DNA of 47,749 nt from assembly GCA_020348865.1 (NCBI GenBank), contig CP070754.1, forward strand, positions 206,008 through 253,756, written 5' to 3'. This stretch comes from Candidatus Bathyarchaeota archaeon. Lineage in GTDB: Archaea; Thermoproteota; Bathyarchaeia; Bathyarchaeales; Bathyarchaeaceae. Shown here in pieces: positions 25,748-35,122 of this stretch. The notes under the pieces are model-generated. The model saw only the letters and a list, made by a program, of their open reading frames with translations. It made no database searches and was not told the DNA's origin. Position numbers and translations under genes: made by a program. Each line of letters opens with the position of its first letter. The first letter of the stretch is position 1.

Positions 25748-26308
25748 TTAGCTTTCATCAGAATTGATCCGATCTCCAAGCTTGTAGAAATTGAAGTCTC
25801 CACCTGTGGCCCAGATGATTGGATGAACTTTTCTCATGTCAAGCTTACCATTTGTGAGACATTTTGAGTCAACGTATGATTGGACGACTCTACCAATAAT
25901 TCCTTCGTTGGGGTCGTAGTCAAGGATTTCAGTTACTTCACACTCCACATTTATGGGACACTGACGAATCATTGGAGCAGTTTCAAGCTTCCCATAAAAT
26001 GTGTCGAAGAGAGCCCCTTTGTCGAAGTTTCGACCGGATTTGCTTCCACAGATATTTGTTTCAGCTAGGAGATTTTCTGAAGGGATGTTCACGCTAAACG
26101 TTTTGTTCTCGTGAATTCCGGTTCGTGTATGCCGTTTCTTATACAAACTGAAGAAAATGTATCTTCCAAAGTCAAAAGGTGAGATGTATCCAATTACAAG
26201 GTAGTTTGGATGGCCGTTGACCAATGCTCCAACCAGAATTATGGGTAGTGGGCTCAGAAGATTACCTTCAAGCTCCTTTTTGATTGATTTCACCTTACTC
26301 ATTTGCAT
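25748..26308 (-). CDS. Flavin reductase-like FMN-binding protein
   Basis: 186 residues of the flavin reductase/NTAB split-barrel family. Visible are LSPLPIILVGALVNG at the start of the barrel, IGYISPFDFGRYIFFSL, FSVNIPSENLLAETNICG (flavin phosphate region) and a conserved closing WATGGDFNFYKLGD. ATG 26308 or 26302 (GGTGA 6 nt before the latter). Same strand as the arsM operon and 124 bp downstream, so possibly read from it, though the gap is large. It lacks the Cys-Cys pair of the arsM operon proteins. Confidence 0.82.
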   Translation of the reverse strand: MQMSKVKSIKKELEGNLLSPLPIILVGALVNGHPNYLVIGYISPFDFGRYIFFSLYKKRHTRTGIHENKTFSVNIPSENLLAETNICGSKSGRNFDKGALFDTFYGKLETAPMIRQCPINVECEVTEILDYDPNEGIIGRVVQSYVDSKCLTNGKLDMRKVHPIIWATGGDFNFYKLGDRINSDES

Positions 26309-26432: not shown

Positions 26433-26528
26433 TCAACAACAGCTAGTCTCTTTCTTTTCAGTGTCACAGCAGCTTGATTGCTGTTTTCCGGGTTTCTCTG
26501 CTTTCTTTCCTATCTTTTTGTCATCCAC
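26433..26528 (-). CDS. 31-residue protein with two vicinal Cys pairs, in the arsM operon
   Basis: Frame on the minus strand: GTG start at 26526-26528, preceded by AGGAGGTGA that overlaps the arsM stop codon, and a TGA stop at 26433-26435. The product is a Lys-rich N-terminal half followed by SSCCDTEKKETSCC, with Cys at 20, 21, 30 and 31. It starts 12 nt after arsM, and the SD is one of the best in the window, so it is very likely translated. I know no named family. Vicinal dithiols bind As(III), so a chaperone or scavenger for arsenite feeding ArsM is plausible; this is inference. Confidence 0.7.
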   Translation of the reverse strand: MDDKKIGKKAEKPGKQQSSCCDTEKKETSCC

Positions 26529-26540
26529 TATTCTCACCTC

Positions 26541-27374
26541 CTAATGCTGTATTCGTGTTTGTGTTTGTTTCTCTATGTCTTTTGTACGTCTCATTTGCTT
26601 GAACGCTCTGACTTGAACGCTCTTTATTTGCGTCTGCGAACAGCAATTGTTGAATGCTTTTTCCGAAACGACTTCGACGTTTTTGAACCCAGCTCTCCTT
26701 ATGGTTTTCAGATACTGGTTCTTTTCCAGGGCGCCTGCTACACAGCCTGCCCATGCCTTGAAGCTGTTCCTGACAGATTCAGGTAATTCGCCCTCTGTAA
26801 CCAGGTCGGAAATCATTAGCCTTCCACCGGGTTTCAGAACTCTGTATGCCTCTTGAAACACCTTTTCTTTGTCAGGGGATAGATTGATTACACAGTTGCT
26901 GACTATGACATCGACGGATTTGTCTTCGATTGGAAGATTTTCTATTTCTCCCAGTTTGAACTCCACGTTTTTGTATCCATATCTAGAAGCTGTGGCTTTT
27001 GCTTTCTGAACCATCTCTTCAGTCATGTCAACGCCAATAGCTTTGCCCTTTGGTCCAATCTTTTTTGCTGCCAAGAAGACATCGAACCCACCACCTGAGC
27101 CCAGATCCAGAATTGTTTCTCCTTTTTTTAGACTAACTAAAGCCGTAGGATTTCCGCAACCTAGACCCATATTGGAAGATTCTGGAATGTTCGTCAAATC
27201 TTCCTCCGAATACCCCATTATTCTGGCTGCGCCTGCGTGTTCACGCGTCGAAGAACCGCAGCAAGATCTTCGGGTTTGAGCTATCTCACCATATCTTTTT
27301 CTCACGAATTCTTTGATTTCTTTTTCCGAGTGTTTTCTTTCAGGGCTTTTCATACACTGTCGCTTCCTAGTCAT
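26541..27374 (-). CDS. arsM: Arsenite methyltransferase
   Basis: 277 residues; transfers methyl groups from SAM to As(III) in the cytoplasm. SAM motifs are ILDLGSGGGFDVF and GVDMTEEMV. The three cysteines required in characterised ArsM are present as C73 (LGCGNP), C161 (SNCVINLSPDKE) and C211 (AGCVAGAL). Further Cys pairs are C38-C39 (RSCCGSS) and C244-C245 (NNCCSQ). The start at ATG 27374 overlaps the upstream protease gene by 8 nt; ATG 27353 is an alternative. Third gene of a minus-strand operon, followed by a 31-residue Cys-Cys protein. Confidence 0.93.
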   Translation of the reverse strand: MTRKRQCMKSPERKHSEKEIKEFVRKRYGEIAQTRRSCCGSSTREHAGAARIMGYSEEDLTNIPESSNMGLGCGNPTALVSLKKGETILDLGSGGGFDVFLAAKKIGPKGKAIGVDMTEEMVQKAKATASRYGYKNVEFKLGEIENLPIEDKSVDVIVSNCVINLSPDKEKVFQEAYRVLKPGGRLMISDLVTEGELPESVRNSFKAWAGCVAGALEKNQYLKTIRRAGFKNVEVVSEKAFNNCCSQTQIKSVQVRAFKQMRRTKDIEKQTQTRIQH

Positions 27375-28179
27375 TTCTGGCTACACGTTCAAACGATATT
27401 TCTTGTTTGGGGTAGTTGATGGTAACTCGATAGTCTTTCATGAAGGTATATCCAATTACACCATTCACGAACGTTCCTATCCCCTTTGAGAGTTGTGTTA
27501 GGTCATGGAGTCCCACATCAACATTCTCTGATATAACATCACCCAATTGCATAGACTCAACTTTCGCCAGAGTCATTACAGCCCCAGCAAAGGATCCGCT
27601 TAATGCTCTCCTTTGACCCGACGCTTTCTCATAGAGACCAAGCGCCTTGCTCGTGTGCCCTGTTATCGTTGTTAGACTAGCTCCTGTGTCAACTAAGAAG
27701 TCATAAGGACCTTTACGATTCACTGCAGCTTCAACAACGATAAAAGGCGCGTGACTAGCAAATCTAAACTTCACTCTCCTTTCTTCTACCACCGTTGAGT
27801 TTCCGAAGCATATTTCCTGTTTAGGATAGTCAATAATGACTTTGCAGTTTCTCAAGAGTGAAGCCCCGATTATGCCGTCAATACGTGTGCCAACTTCTTC
27901 CGAGATTGTTAAAAGGTTTCCTGGCACAACTGAGACATCTTTTGCTTCAACGTTATCGACCTCTATAGACTCAACTCGCATCAGAGCTGAAGAACAGCAA
28001 CCTTTAGAACCTCTTTCTGAGTCAGAAAGTTTCCCTTGAAAGCCTATTGTTCCAATCGTCTCCTTTGCGATGACAGTTACACTAGACCCAGTATCGACCA
28101 AAAATCTTAAAGGCCCTTTGCTGTTTACCCTGGCCTCAACTATGACTACAGGCGCTTTCTCAGCCAACTCAAATCTCAC
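27367..28179 (-). CDS. Two-lobed retropepsin-like aspartic protease
   Basis: 270 residues built from two homologous halves. Each half has a catalytic FLVDTG(S/A)S motif, D29 in the first and D164 in the second, a hydrophobic-hydrophobic-Gly element (DGIIGASLL and NGVIGYTFM) and the closing YPKQEI. Such motifs are those of retroviral-type (gag-asp) proteases, which normally dimerise; here one chain supplies both aspartates. No signal peptide, so it is likely cytoplasmic. A Cys pair lies at 61-62 (GCCSSA) in the first half only. GTG start with GGAGG upstream; 8-nt overlap with arsM. The substrate is unknown. Confidence 0.85.
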   Translation of the reverse strand: MRFELAEKAPVVIVEARVNSKGPLRFLVDTGSSVTVIAKETIGTIGFQGKLSDSERGSKGCCSSALMRVESIEVDNVEAKDVSVVPGNLLTISEEVGTRIDGIIGASLLRNCKVIIDYPKQEICFGNSTVVEERRVKFRFASHAPFIVVEAAVNRKGPYDFLVDTGASLTTITGHTSKALGLYEKASGQRRALSGSFAGAVMTLAKVESMQLGDVISENVDVGLHDLTQLSKGIGTFVNGVIGYTFMKDYRVTINYPKQEISFERVARND

Positions 28180-28218: not shown

Positions 28219-28812
28219 TCAGGAGAGGTCAATTGGGTTCCCATATGTTTCATCAAAGCAGAGTTCTTGAAGGCTTTTTCTTGGTCTAGGCTGGGGCGTC
28301 TCTCCTGGGATCCCTAGAGCCACCAGTACAATGATGTGCATGTGCTCAGGTATTCTCAAGGCAGTTCTGACTTCATCAATCCATTCTTCTGGCCGCGACT
28401 CATAATTGGCAATCCAACAGGTTCCGTAACCCAACGCTGTCGCCGCCAATACTAGATGTTCGGTCGCAATCAGAGGATCTCTTGTGGTCCAAGTTGCGCG
28501 GGGGCAACATGAAACGCTGGAATCGCCCAACACAACAATGATTGCGTTCGCGTTGGCGATAAATGGTTGCGTGAGAAACGTGCGACCTTGAAACCGAGGT
28601 TTTGCAAGGAGCTCCTTCACTTTCTGATTTCGAATAATTATGAACCGCCAAGGCTGGCTGTTTTCCGCAGATGGTGCAAGTCGAGCAGCTTCGAAAATCT
28701 TCTTGAAATCTTCTTTTGGAATGTCATGCGGTTTATATTTCCGAATAGATCGCCTTCGCCTAACCACTTCGAAGAAGCTCTCTGCTACATCTGGTCTTGC
28801 ATGTTGTCTCAT
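28219..28812 (-). CDS. Nitroreductase-family protein
   Basis: 197 residues, FMN-dependent oxidoreductase fold. RRRRSIRKYKPHDIP and EAARLAPSAENSQPWRF are the N-terminal FMN-binding signature and LGYGTCWIANYESR the C-terminal one. A vicinal Cys pair (C102-C103, SVSCCPRATW) sits in a loop where relatives have no such motif that I recall. First gene of the minus-strand arsM operon, with GGTGA 5 nt before ATG 28812. The leader begins in a 20-bp dyad shared with the divergent TrmB gene. It might reduce a metalloid or thiol-linked substrate; this is not shown. Confidence 0.87.
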   Translation of the reverse strand: MRQHARPDVAESFFEVVRRRRSIRKYKPHDIPKEDFKKIFEAARLAPSAENSQPWRFIIIRNQKVKELLAKPRFQGRTFLTQPFIANANAIIVVLGDSSVSCCPRATWTTRDPLIATEHLVLAATALGYGTCWIANYESRPEEWIDEVRTALRIPEHMHIIVLVALGIPGETPQPRPRKSLQELCFDETYGNPIDLS

Positions 28813-28832
28813 TCATTCACCGCATCATGTTT

Positions 28833-28852
28833 CTACAACCAATTGGTAGTAG
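28833..28852. promoter_or_regulatory. 20-bp near-perfect dyad, candidate operator of the TrmB/nitroreductase intergenic region
   Basis: CTAC-a-ACCAATTGGT-a-GTAG: nine of ten positions are symmetric. It overlaps the expected nitroreductase transcription start and lies just upstream of the TATA element of the regulator gene, so one bound dimer could control both. Confidence 0.55.
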
Positions 28853-28857
28853 AAAGA

Positions 28858-28905: not shown

Positions 28906-29667
28906 GTGGAAAGAATCAACCCGTCTGTCAAGGAGAATCTCGTATCCGAACTTAAGGCTCTGGGTGTTTCAACCAACGCGTCCAAAGCGTATCTAACACT
29001 TCTATCTAAACCATCAACGCCAGCCAGCGTTCTGTGCAACGAGACTGGGATACCTGACTCGAAGATATATTACGCTTTGACTGAGCTCTCAAAAAGAGGG
29101 ATGATAATCGTTCAAGAGGGAACACCCAATATCTACAGACCTTTGCATCCAAAAGAAGCCATAAAAAACCTGAAACAGCAACTTGTGGAGAGCCTGAACG
29201 AAAAAATGGCGCGAGCGGACAATTTTGCAGATTTGCTCTCACCAATCTTCGAAAGCTCTGAAAGCAAGGAAGAAATCAAATTAGCCTATGTAATTCGCGG
29301 ACGGAGAGGAATAGTCCAAAAGATGAAAGATTTGATAAGCTCTGCGAAAGAAAAAGCCGTGATCTTCATTTCCGAAAAAGACCTGTTGCATGAACTAGGA
29401 TCTTCAATTGTAAAAGCAAACAGGAATATTCAAACACAGCTTGCTATCACCAGAAACCTCCTAAAGACAGCAAACCTAGAAGAGTTTGGGCCAACAAGGA
29501 TATTGACATGCCCCGTTAATATCGTAATATCTGACATGAAGATGCTGATAACCGTCTCAAGCTGGAAGAGCGAAATCGCAATAATGACTAATGATGAGGC
29601 TCTGATGACAATATCGAGAGAATACTACGACAATCCAAGATGCTGCAAAAGCGTTGGTTGGACATAA
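28906..29667 (+). CDS. TrmB-family transcriptional regulator with C-terminal Cys pair
   Basis: 253 residues. The N-terminal winged helix (ALGVSTNASKAYLTLLSKPS, SVLCNETGIPDSKIYYALTELSKRG) and the coiled region (PKEAIKNLKQQLVESLNEKM) are of TrmB type. The rest, about 110-245, is the phospholipase-D-like effector domain of the family. It ends PRCCKSVGWT with a vicinal pair at C246-C247. GTG start with GAGG 9 nt upstream. Divergent from the nitroreductase-protease-arsM operon and sharing a dyad, so it is the likely regulator; the Cys pair could sense As(III). Confidence 0.85.
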   Translation: MERINPSVKENLVSELKALGVSTNASKAYLTLLSKPSTPASVLCNETGIPDSKIYYALTELSKRGMIIVQEGTPNIYRPLHPKEAIKNLKQQLVESLNEKMARADNFADLLSPIFESSESKEEIKLAYVIRGRRGIVQKMKDLISSAKEKAVIFISEKDLLHELGSSIVKANRNIQTQLAITRNLLKTANLEEFGPTRILTCPVNIVISDMKMLITVSSWKSEIAIMTNDEALMTISREYYDNPRCCKSVGWT

Positions 29668-34120: not shown

Positions 34121-34594
34121 TCATCTAGGGTTTACTTTTCTTTCTGACGACGGAATCGCTGGTGTTATAAGTTTGCTTAACAACTGGAAACACACTCCGA
34201 CACTGATAGAAATGACAAAAGAAACAGCGACCCTAAGGACAAAGAAGACTGGCCCGAACATATCTACTTCCAGAAAAGCGCGGAGTGGCCCCACCAAGGT
34301 TTGACTAGTAATGAAGGCAGCCACAGCGCTAATTGACAAACCACCACTTTGTAACACCTTCAAGAGAGGGAGATAAGGAGCAAGCGGTCCAGGCGTCACC
34401 AAACCCAATACTGAAGCTCCTGCAATGTTTTTTCTCTCTCCTTTAAGCAGCATCCCTATTCTGTCCTCCGAAATATACAGGCTGAGAACCTTACCCACTA
34501 CTATGGCAGCCAACAGGATAGGCAAAAACCCCAGGAATCTTACCAGTGTAAGGTAGAGCATGTCAATGACCACAGTAACTTCAGCTACCACAAT
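34121..34594 (-). CDS. Permease half-protein, C-terminal half (DUF318/ArsP-like)
   Basis: 157 residues with about four TM helices and a GLVTPGPLAPYLPLLKVLQSG motif. It resembles the second half of PF03773-type permeases. I start at GTG 34594 because GGAGG lies 7 nt upstream and the start overlaps the end of the preceding half-gene by 10 nt; the frame is open back to 34669 but that would overlap the other gene by 85 bp. With its neighbour it would form a two-chain permease. The substrate is unknown. Confidence 0.65.
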   Translation of the reverse strand: MVVAEVTVVIDMLYLTLVRFLGFLPILLAAIVVGKVLSLYISEDRIGMLLKGERKNIAGASVLGLVTPGPLAPYLPLLKVLQSGGLSISAVAAFITSQTLVGPLRAFLEVDMFGPVFFVLRVAVSFVISISVGVCFQLLSKLITPAIPSSERKVNPR

Positions 34595-35004
34595 AAGGCC
34601 TCCGCCACAAAACTTCCTGCGATGACAAATGCCGTACATAAGATTAGCCGCGTTGCGAAGGCTTTCCACCCGAAGTACTTGAATTCCATAACATCCCTAT
34701 CCGGAGCCCCGAAAATAACCTCTCCAGAAATAAGGGCAAAAATGGTCCCAATACTTGCCCCTTTCTGGAATAATGAGAAGGCAATCGGATATGTGGCGTA
34801 TCTAGGAATAGGGAGAACTATGCCTATGAACGTCGCTAATGGAATTGACAGAAAAGGGTTCTTCCCCAGAACAGCAAACGCAATCTCCTCGGGCAAATAG
34901 AACTCAAGCACTACACCGATCAGAGTAGCAATGAAGAAGGCAGGAATGATAGTCTTCATCTCTTTCAGAGAATCCACACAGACATACGCCACTTTTTCCT
35001 TCAT
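34585..35004 (-). CDS. Permease half-protein, N-terminal half (DUF318/ArsP-like)
   Basis: About 139 residues with four TM helices. FIGIVLPIPRYATYPIAFSLFQKGAS corresponds to the P-rich first repeat motif of PF03773 permeases, although the usual C(S/C)CG variant is absent (YATYPIA). The C-terminus is WKAFATRLILC and a TM. I start at ATG 35004 with GGGAAGG 5 nt before it; ATG 35040 is possible. Translationally coupled to the following half-gene. Confidence 0.65.
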   Translation of the reverse strand: MKEKVAYVCVDSLKEMKTIIPAFFIATLIGVVLEFYLPEEIAFAVLGKNPFLSIPLATFIGIVLPIPRYATYPIAFSLFQKGASIGTIFALISGEVIFGAPDRDVMEFKYFGWKAFATRLILCTAFVIAGSFVAEALLW

Positions 35005-35122
35005 GATAACCTTCCCGCCTTTTCCGTTATAGACAAACATTCACTTAAGGATGCTCACTCATTGCATGCGTTTTGCTATGGAAGACTAGATGCATACCGA
35101 AGGATTACTTTAAAGATGAAAA

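Follow-up and report, generated by a model that had tools for sequence, protein, structure and literature searches.

The window analysed here is a stretch of 47,749 nucleotides (nt) from the genome of an uncultured Candidatus Bathyarchaeota archaeon (contig CP070754.1). On its minus strand lies a short arsenic gene cluster, in which a frame of 31 codons follows arsM, the gene for arsenite S-adenosylmethionine methyltransferase (Table 1). The small frame is probably a real, independently translated gene, and its product is probably an overlooked arsenic- or soft-metal-binding peptide. The frame starts with GTG at 26528-26526, exactly 12 nt after the arsM stop codon (TAG, 26543-26541), and ends with TGA at 26435-26433. 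Its ribosome-binding site, AGGAGGTGA, overlaps the arsM stop, with 8 nt between AGGAGG and the GTG, and the encoded peptide carries two cysteine pairs (CC) separated by eight residues (DTEKKETS). The sequence details that an earlier note on this DNA had given, without a strand, were all confirmed. The note had also described the first half of the peptide as Lys-rich, a possible basis for an electrostatic partnership with an enzyme; the peptide has 8 Lys but also 6 Asp/Glu, and its mixed charge weakens that argument.

The frame has the marks of a protein-coding gene: it is conserved, has a ribosome site of its own, and its ratio of nonsynonymous to synonymous change (pN/pS) is below 1. We searched for ArsM in 60 relatives and in the GTDB contig set and read the DNA downstream of arsM in three forward frames. 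Three further members of the order have a comparable frame behind arsM, of 27, 29, and 24 residues. The closest ArsM, 79% identical, is that of G010 (JAOUKN010000027.1, a Candidatus Bathyarchaeota metagenome-assembled genome), where the peptide MSEEKVEKKVKQRSSCCDTERKSTSCC begins with ATG in place of GTG, while TTAGGAGGTGAGA and the spacing are unchanged. In a second relative, G165, the peptide MEEKKKTRKEEASSCCNSEQKESQSCCSA is encoded approximately 50 nt past arsM; it was found through an order-wide search for GGAGGTGA plus a start codon and CC, read alongside a class-wide search for the aspartyl protease. The third, MEEKKKIGKEETEKAKESQGCCGT of G053, lies approximately 300 nt past arsM and was noticed on reading the downstream DNA. 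All four loci share AGGAGGTGA and the 8-nt spacing. When the window peptide alone was used to search the order, G010 was the sole clear match, accompanied by five weak ones (E 0.09-0.7).

Comparison of these sequences points to purifying selection on the arsM-linked frame, since synonymous change exceeds nonsynonymous change. The pN/pS was 0.43 for the window-G010 pair and 0.36 across the four peptides, although the G053 row is poorly aligned within the whole group and the pairwise values are the safer ones. One-sided Fisher tests gave p = 0.04 for window-G010 and p = 2e-5 for G165-G053. Third codon positions change most, and the indel that separates the window and G010 peptides preserves the frame. 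The earlier note had named in advance two findings that would count against its proposal, namely the lack of a conserved frame behind arsM in relatives and equal rates of the two kinds of change; the frame is present in three relatives, and synonymous change is in excess.

To gauge chance, 100 windows were simulated from the dinucleotide frequencies of this window alone. On average, a simulated window held 0.03 frames of 20-45 codons that had both two CC pairs and a Shine-Dalgarno (SD) site in front, and the real window holds one; with GGAGGTGA added to the pattern, none arose in the 100 simulations. Across the class, sampled here as 257 genomes, the strict nucleotide pattern occurs in two, both times adjoining arsM. 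The peptide has no match in Pfam or NCBIfam, nor the locus in Rfam, and our literature searches returned no description of such a peptide.

The surrounding cluster is rich in Cys pairs. Its order is the same in all four peptide-bearing genomes, with a divergent TrmB-family gene followed on the other strand by genes for a nitroreductase, a retropepsin-like protein, ArsM, and the peptide. The methyltransferase scores above the NF008823 cut-off, matches arsenite methyltransferases in the PDB, and belongs to an alignment of six ArsMs in which the GCG, SNC, and AGC columns are invariant; the ArsM of Cyanidioschyzon has three catalytic Cys (Cys72/174/224; PMC6950371). A CC occurs near the ArsM start in 6/6 clusters, an SCC or GCC segment in the nitroreductase in 6/6, NPKCC or NPRCC at the TrmB C-terminus in 5/5 aligned orthologues, and GCC in the protease-like protein of the window and G053. 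No CC stands at the corresponding place in the two best-matching PDB nitroreductases. Among the 46 open reading frames of at least 100 residues in the window, a CC dipeptide is found in five, four of which are the adjacent cluster genes.

Two features set the peptide-bearing clusters apart. The first is a second, C-terminal Cys pair in the four peptide-linked ArsMs (NNCCSQ, SECCSQ, GDCCSY, and GNCCLI), which is absent at that place in other close ArsMs that lack the peptide. The second is the protease-like gene. Two clusters, in G018 and G026, have the order TrmB, nitroreductase, arsM, flavin reductase, with neither the protease-like gene nor the peptide; the peptide is thus present in 4/4 clusters with that gene and in 0/2 without it. 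In the window, G165, and G053 the protease-like protein has two domains; the G010 version is shorter. The ArsMs that accompany a peptide form one clade (support 98/96) that spans three families.

Table 1. Features of the arsM cluster, with positions in the window
Feature	Position	Strand	Basis and remarks
Flavin reductase-domain protein, downstream	25748..26308	minus	PF01613; follows arsM in peptide-less clusters too
Small open reading frame, 31 residues, MDDKKIGKKAEKPGKQQSSCCDTEKKETSCC	26433..26528	minus	GTG start, TGA stop; counterparts in G010, G165, G053; pN/pS < 1
Ribosome-binding site AGGAGGTGA	26534..26542	minus	Overlaps arsM stop; shared, with its 8-nt spacing, by the four arsM-linked loci
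arsM, arsenite S-adenosylmethionine methyltransferase	26541..27374	minus	NCBIfam NF008823, 353 bits; PDB arsenite methyltransferases; N-terminal SCC, extra C-terminal CC (NNCCSQ)
Double-domain retropepsin-like aspartyl protease-family protein with GCC	27367..28179	minus	PF13650/PF13975; synteny
Nitroreductase-family protein	28219..28812	minus	PF00881; SCC segment
Near-perfect inverted repeat TTTCTACTACCAATTGGTTGTAGAAA, candidate operator	28830..28855		TrmB-nitroreductase gap; conserved in six clusters
Divergent TrmB-family regulator ending NPRCC..., candidate metalloid sensor	28906..29667	plus	PF01978; C-terminal CC

Several further observations concern the arsenic genes of this genome and order. 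The protease-like neighbour of arsM has two DTG motifs per chain and resembles a fused retropepsin dimer. Other arsM genes of the order (L079-L084) are paired with a single-domain retropepsin-like gene, mostly together with a CopG-like gene containing CCPEGE or CCPEDE; the combination of arsM with an aspartyl-protease fold is recurrent. PadR-like regulators starting ..CCPEVPSCCDMRG or ..CCNVEPPECCDMRG adjoin arsM on the opposite strand at L010 (L039) and L021, another type of Cys-pair sensor. Within the window, 7-8 kb from arsM, an ArsP_1-type permease is split into two separately encoded halves (34121-34669 and 34585-35040, minus strand), of which the one matching the C-terminal part of the profile comes first. 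The sole Acr3 (TIGR00832) match in the genome, at G000:C1:968853-969164, spans the C-terminal third and is interrupted by three stop codons; it looks like a decayed arsenite efflux gene.

What might the peptide do? The likeliest answer is a small thiol peptide with affinity for As(III), which would either serve ArsM or buffer soft metals. In the first case, the frame near the end of this CC-rich operon would be translated independently from its own strong SD site into a charged peptide of 24-31 residues, unstructured or loosely helical. Its Cys pairs could coordinate As(III) through the two thiols of one pair and a third thiol, giving a tri-thiolate, and the peptide could then present the metalloid to the Cys pairs in the ArsM encoded alongside it. 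It might also, or instead, supply thiols for the reductive step, a job usually ascribed to glutathione (or thioredoxin) in other organisms. We infer the binding and the hand-off or thiol supply from vicinal-thiol chemistry and the analogy with ArsD, and translation, too, is predicted here. That the frame is a real gene of the operon whose product binds As(III) and presents it to ArsM, supplies thiols, or both, has in our estimate an even chance of being right. The role of metalloid chaperone for ArsM proposed by the earlier note is plausible.

A second group of peptides gives weight to the main rival, in which the peptide is a minimal protein of metallothionein type that buffers soft metals (As, Sb, Cu, Hg, Cd, Zn) without specificity for ArsM, and co-regulation with arsM reflects joint induction. 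Six genomes of the class encode a PadR-family regulator that starts with MWCCCGPS/T and mostly has an SCC segment near its end. In five of the six, it is accompanied by a divergent, Lys/Glu-rich peptide of 24-27 residues (MNEKEKVGKKEKEQRDEKRASCCSCC, MDKKEKVKAKEKERETEKRVSCCSCC, MDEKPKVEEKEEERKTKKSVSCCSNCC, MEEKDKVKAKKEEQETEKCTSCCSCC, and MNEEKKVKEKEEKAEKRGSCCSSC), most of which end in SCCSCC and have one or two residues between CC pairs. The region shared by regulator and peptide has the palindrome TATATTCC-N3-GGAAC as well as a TATA-like element in 6/6 genomes, and no conserved enzyme lies beside these peptides, whose pN/pS is 0.31. In the sixth genome, G010, the same type of promoter drives a different, longer Cys-pair protein ending ..CHFCCPPTIACCVPTEKEN (L088 1862-2116), which has no Pfam match. 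All of this would suit a general buffer. Set against it, the arsM-linked peptides go with a single ArsM clade that has an extra Cys pair of its own, and descent of the two groups from a common ancestor is unproven. A profile built on the PadR-linked peptides finds these again (E 2e-8 to 5e-12) and does not match the arsM-linked peptides, so that a single homology family for both was unsupported and the groups were kept apart. They resemble each other in design, with Cys pairs on a Lys/Glu body, a strong ribosome site in front, and close by a regulator that itself has a Cys pair. We consider the general buffer a possible explanation, clearly less probable than a peptide that serves ArsM.

The pairing of the MWCCC PadR with a divergent Cys-pair peptide (L076, L078, L085-L090) is in itself a candidate for a new metal-responsive regulator-peptide pair. 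A scan of 398 genomes across the phylum with the PadR-group profile gave no match at E <= 0.01, while the control on known genomes recovered 5/5. The group therefore looks restricted in range, in a sample of genomes that is thin for the phylum.

Three points weigh against a dedicated partner of ArsM. First, the spacing of the Cys pairs, which the earlier note had taken for a geometry suited to metal ions, is not a constraint: it is x8, x8, and x9 in three of the arsM-linked peptides, and that of G053 has one CC only. Second, similar peptides stand far from arsM, beside PadR regulators, and arsenic methylation need not be the role; the label of ArsM chaperone may be too narrow. Third, the co-occurrence of the peptide and the extra ArsM pair is suggestive but amounts to a single evolutionary event, and it gives no count of independent cases. 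Because one clade represents one event, the linkage and the extra pair are not independent confirmations. The proposed link with ArsM is supported by the shared cluster in 4/4 genomes and by the additional Cys pair in the same four ArsMs, and it is loosened by the peptides found elsewhere.

Other explanations fare less well. The peptide could serve ArsM (or the nitroreductase or flavin reductase) as a thiol reductant, cycling between dithiol and disulfide and carrying no arsenic. Its vicinal Cys pairs and the redox genes of the operon fit this idea, but it has no CXXC redox motif and vicinal CC disulfides are strained, which makes the idea unlikely. We regard as less likely still a regulatory partner that detects metal and in response adjusts the activity of the CC-bearing TrmB or PadR; such a regulator lies near both peptide groups, yet the TrmB with its CC and the palindrome of the TrmB-nitroreductase gap are also found in G018 and G026, both without a peptide. 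A short frame with clustered Cys codons might be a leader peptide or an RNA element that controls a downstream gene. This is improbable, since the downstream genes vary between genomes, the RNA folds no more strongly than shuffled sequences (z = 0.07) and has no Rfam match, and variation in the arsM-linked group falls mostly on third codon positions. Extension of ArsM by readthrough of its TAG, suggested by the fact that the two frames are in phase in the window, is refuted for the group: the frames are out of phase in G010, where the arsM frame stops earlier and the small frame is nonetheless kept, and in G165, with the SD site and start codon retained. A chance frame, for which its shortness speaks, is equally hard to credit given the simulated expectation, the three relatives, and the pN/pS.

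If the peptide does serve ArsM, its role could extend further. ArsM enzymes require thiols. For the human enzyme, complexes of arsenic with glutathione have been put forward as substrates (cited in PMC6950371). By extension, and more tentatively, a ribosomally made Cys-pair peptide might take the place of glutathione in arsenic methylation in these archaea; under physiological conditions it would carry As(III) and donate thiols for a specialised ArsM whose extra Cys pair matches it. The peptide would then represent one branch of a broader class of soft-metal peptides, 24-31 residues long, that stand under CC-bearing regulators and are missing from annotations; we think this broader picture somewhat unlikely as a whole. 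With a Cys-pair peptide that has its own gene and goes with a single ArsM clade, the question of which thiol serves ArsM in archaea of this kind becomes testable. The two groups also suggest that families of metal-type peptides of this size escape annotation and may be found by a strong ribosome site, Cys pairs, and CC-bearing regulators.

Comparison with known systems helps to place the peptide. Like metallothioneins and further metal-binding proteins of very small size, it is tiny, Cys-based, and plausibly metal-inducible, but it has far fewer Cys (2-5), arranged in CC pairs instead of CXC/CXXC arrays, and matches no metallothionein family in Pfam or NCBIfam. The C(P)XCG micro-proteins of Haloferax volcanii are likewise archaeal, shorter than 70 residues, and equipped with paired Cys (PMC11241148, PMC10716476); they are defined by two C(P)XCG motifs, whereas the 31 residues here hold CC pairs only. 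ArsD of E. coli R773, an arsenite metallochaperone, offers a functional analogy, with vicinal Cys pairs and a place in an arsenic operon. Its C-terminal pairs, Cys112-113 and Cys119-120, have been linked to regulation, while the N-terminal Cys12/13/18 are needed for chaperone function and arsenic delivery (PMC4562236). However, ArsD is a protein of approximately 120 residues whose partner is the ArsA ATPase and which can act as a repressor; the peptide has 31 residues, adjoins arsM, and gave no Pfam or NCBIfam match to the ArsD family with its Cys12-Cys13-Cys18 site. A similar-looking SCC motif is found next door, in the N-terminal segment of archaeal ArsM, but there it is part of an enzyme, whereas the peptide is encoded by a separate gene with its own start.
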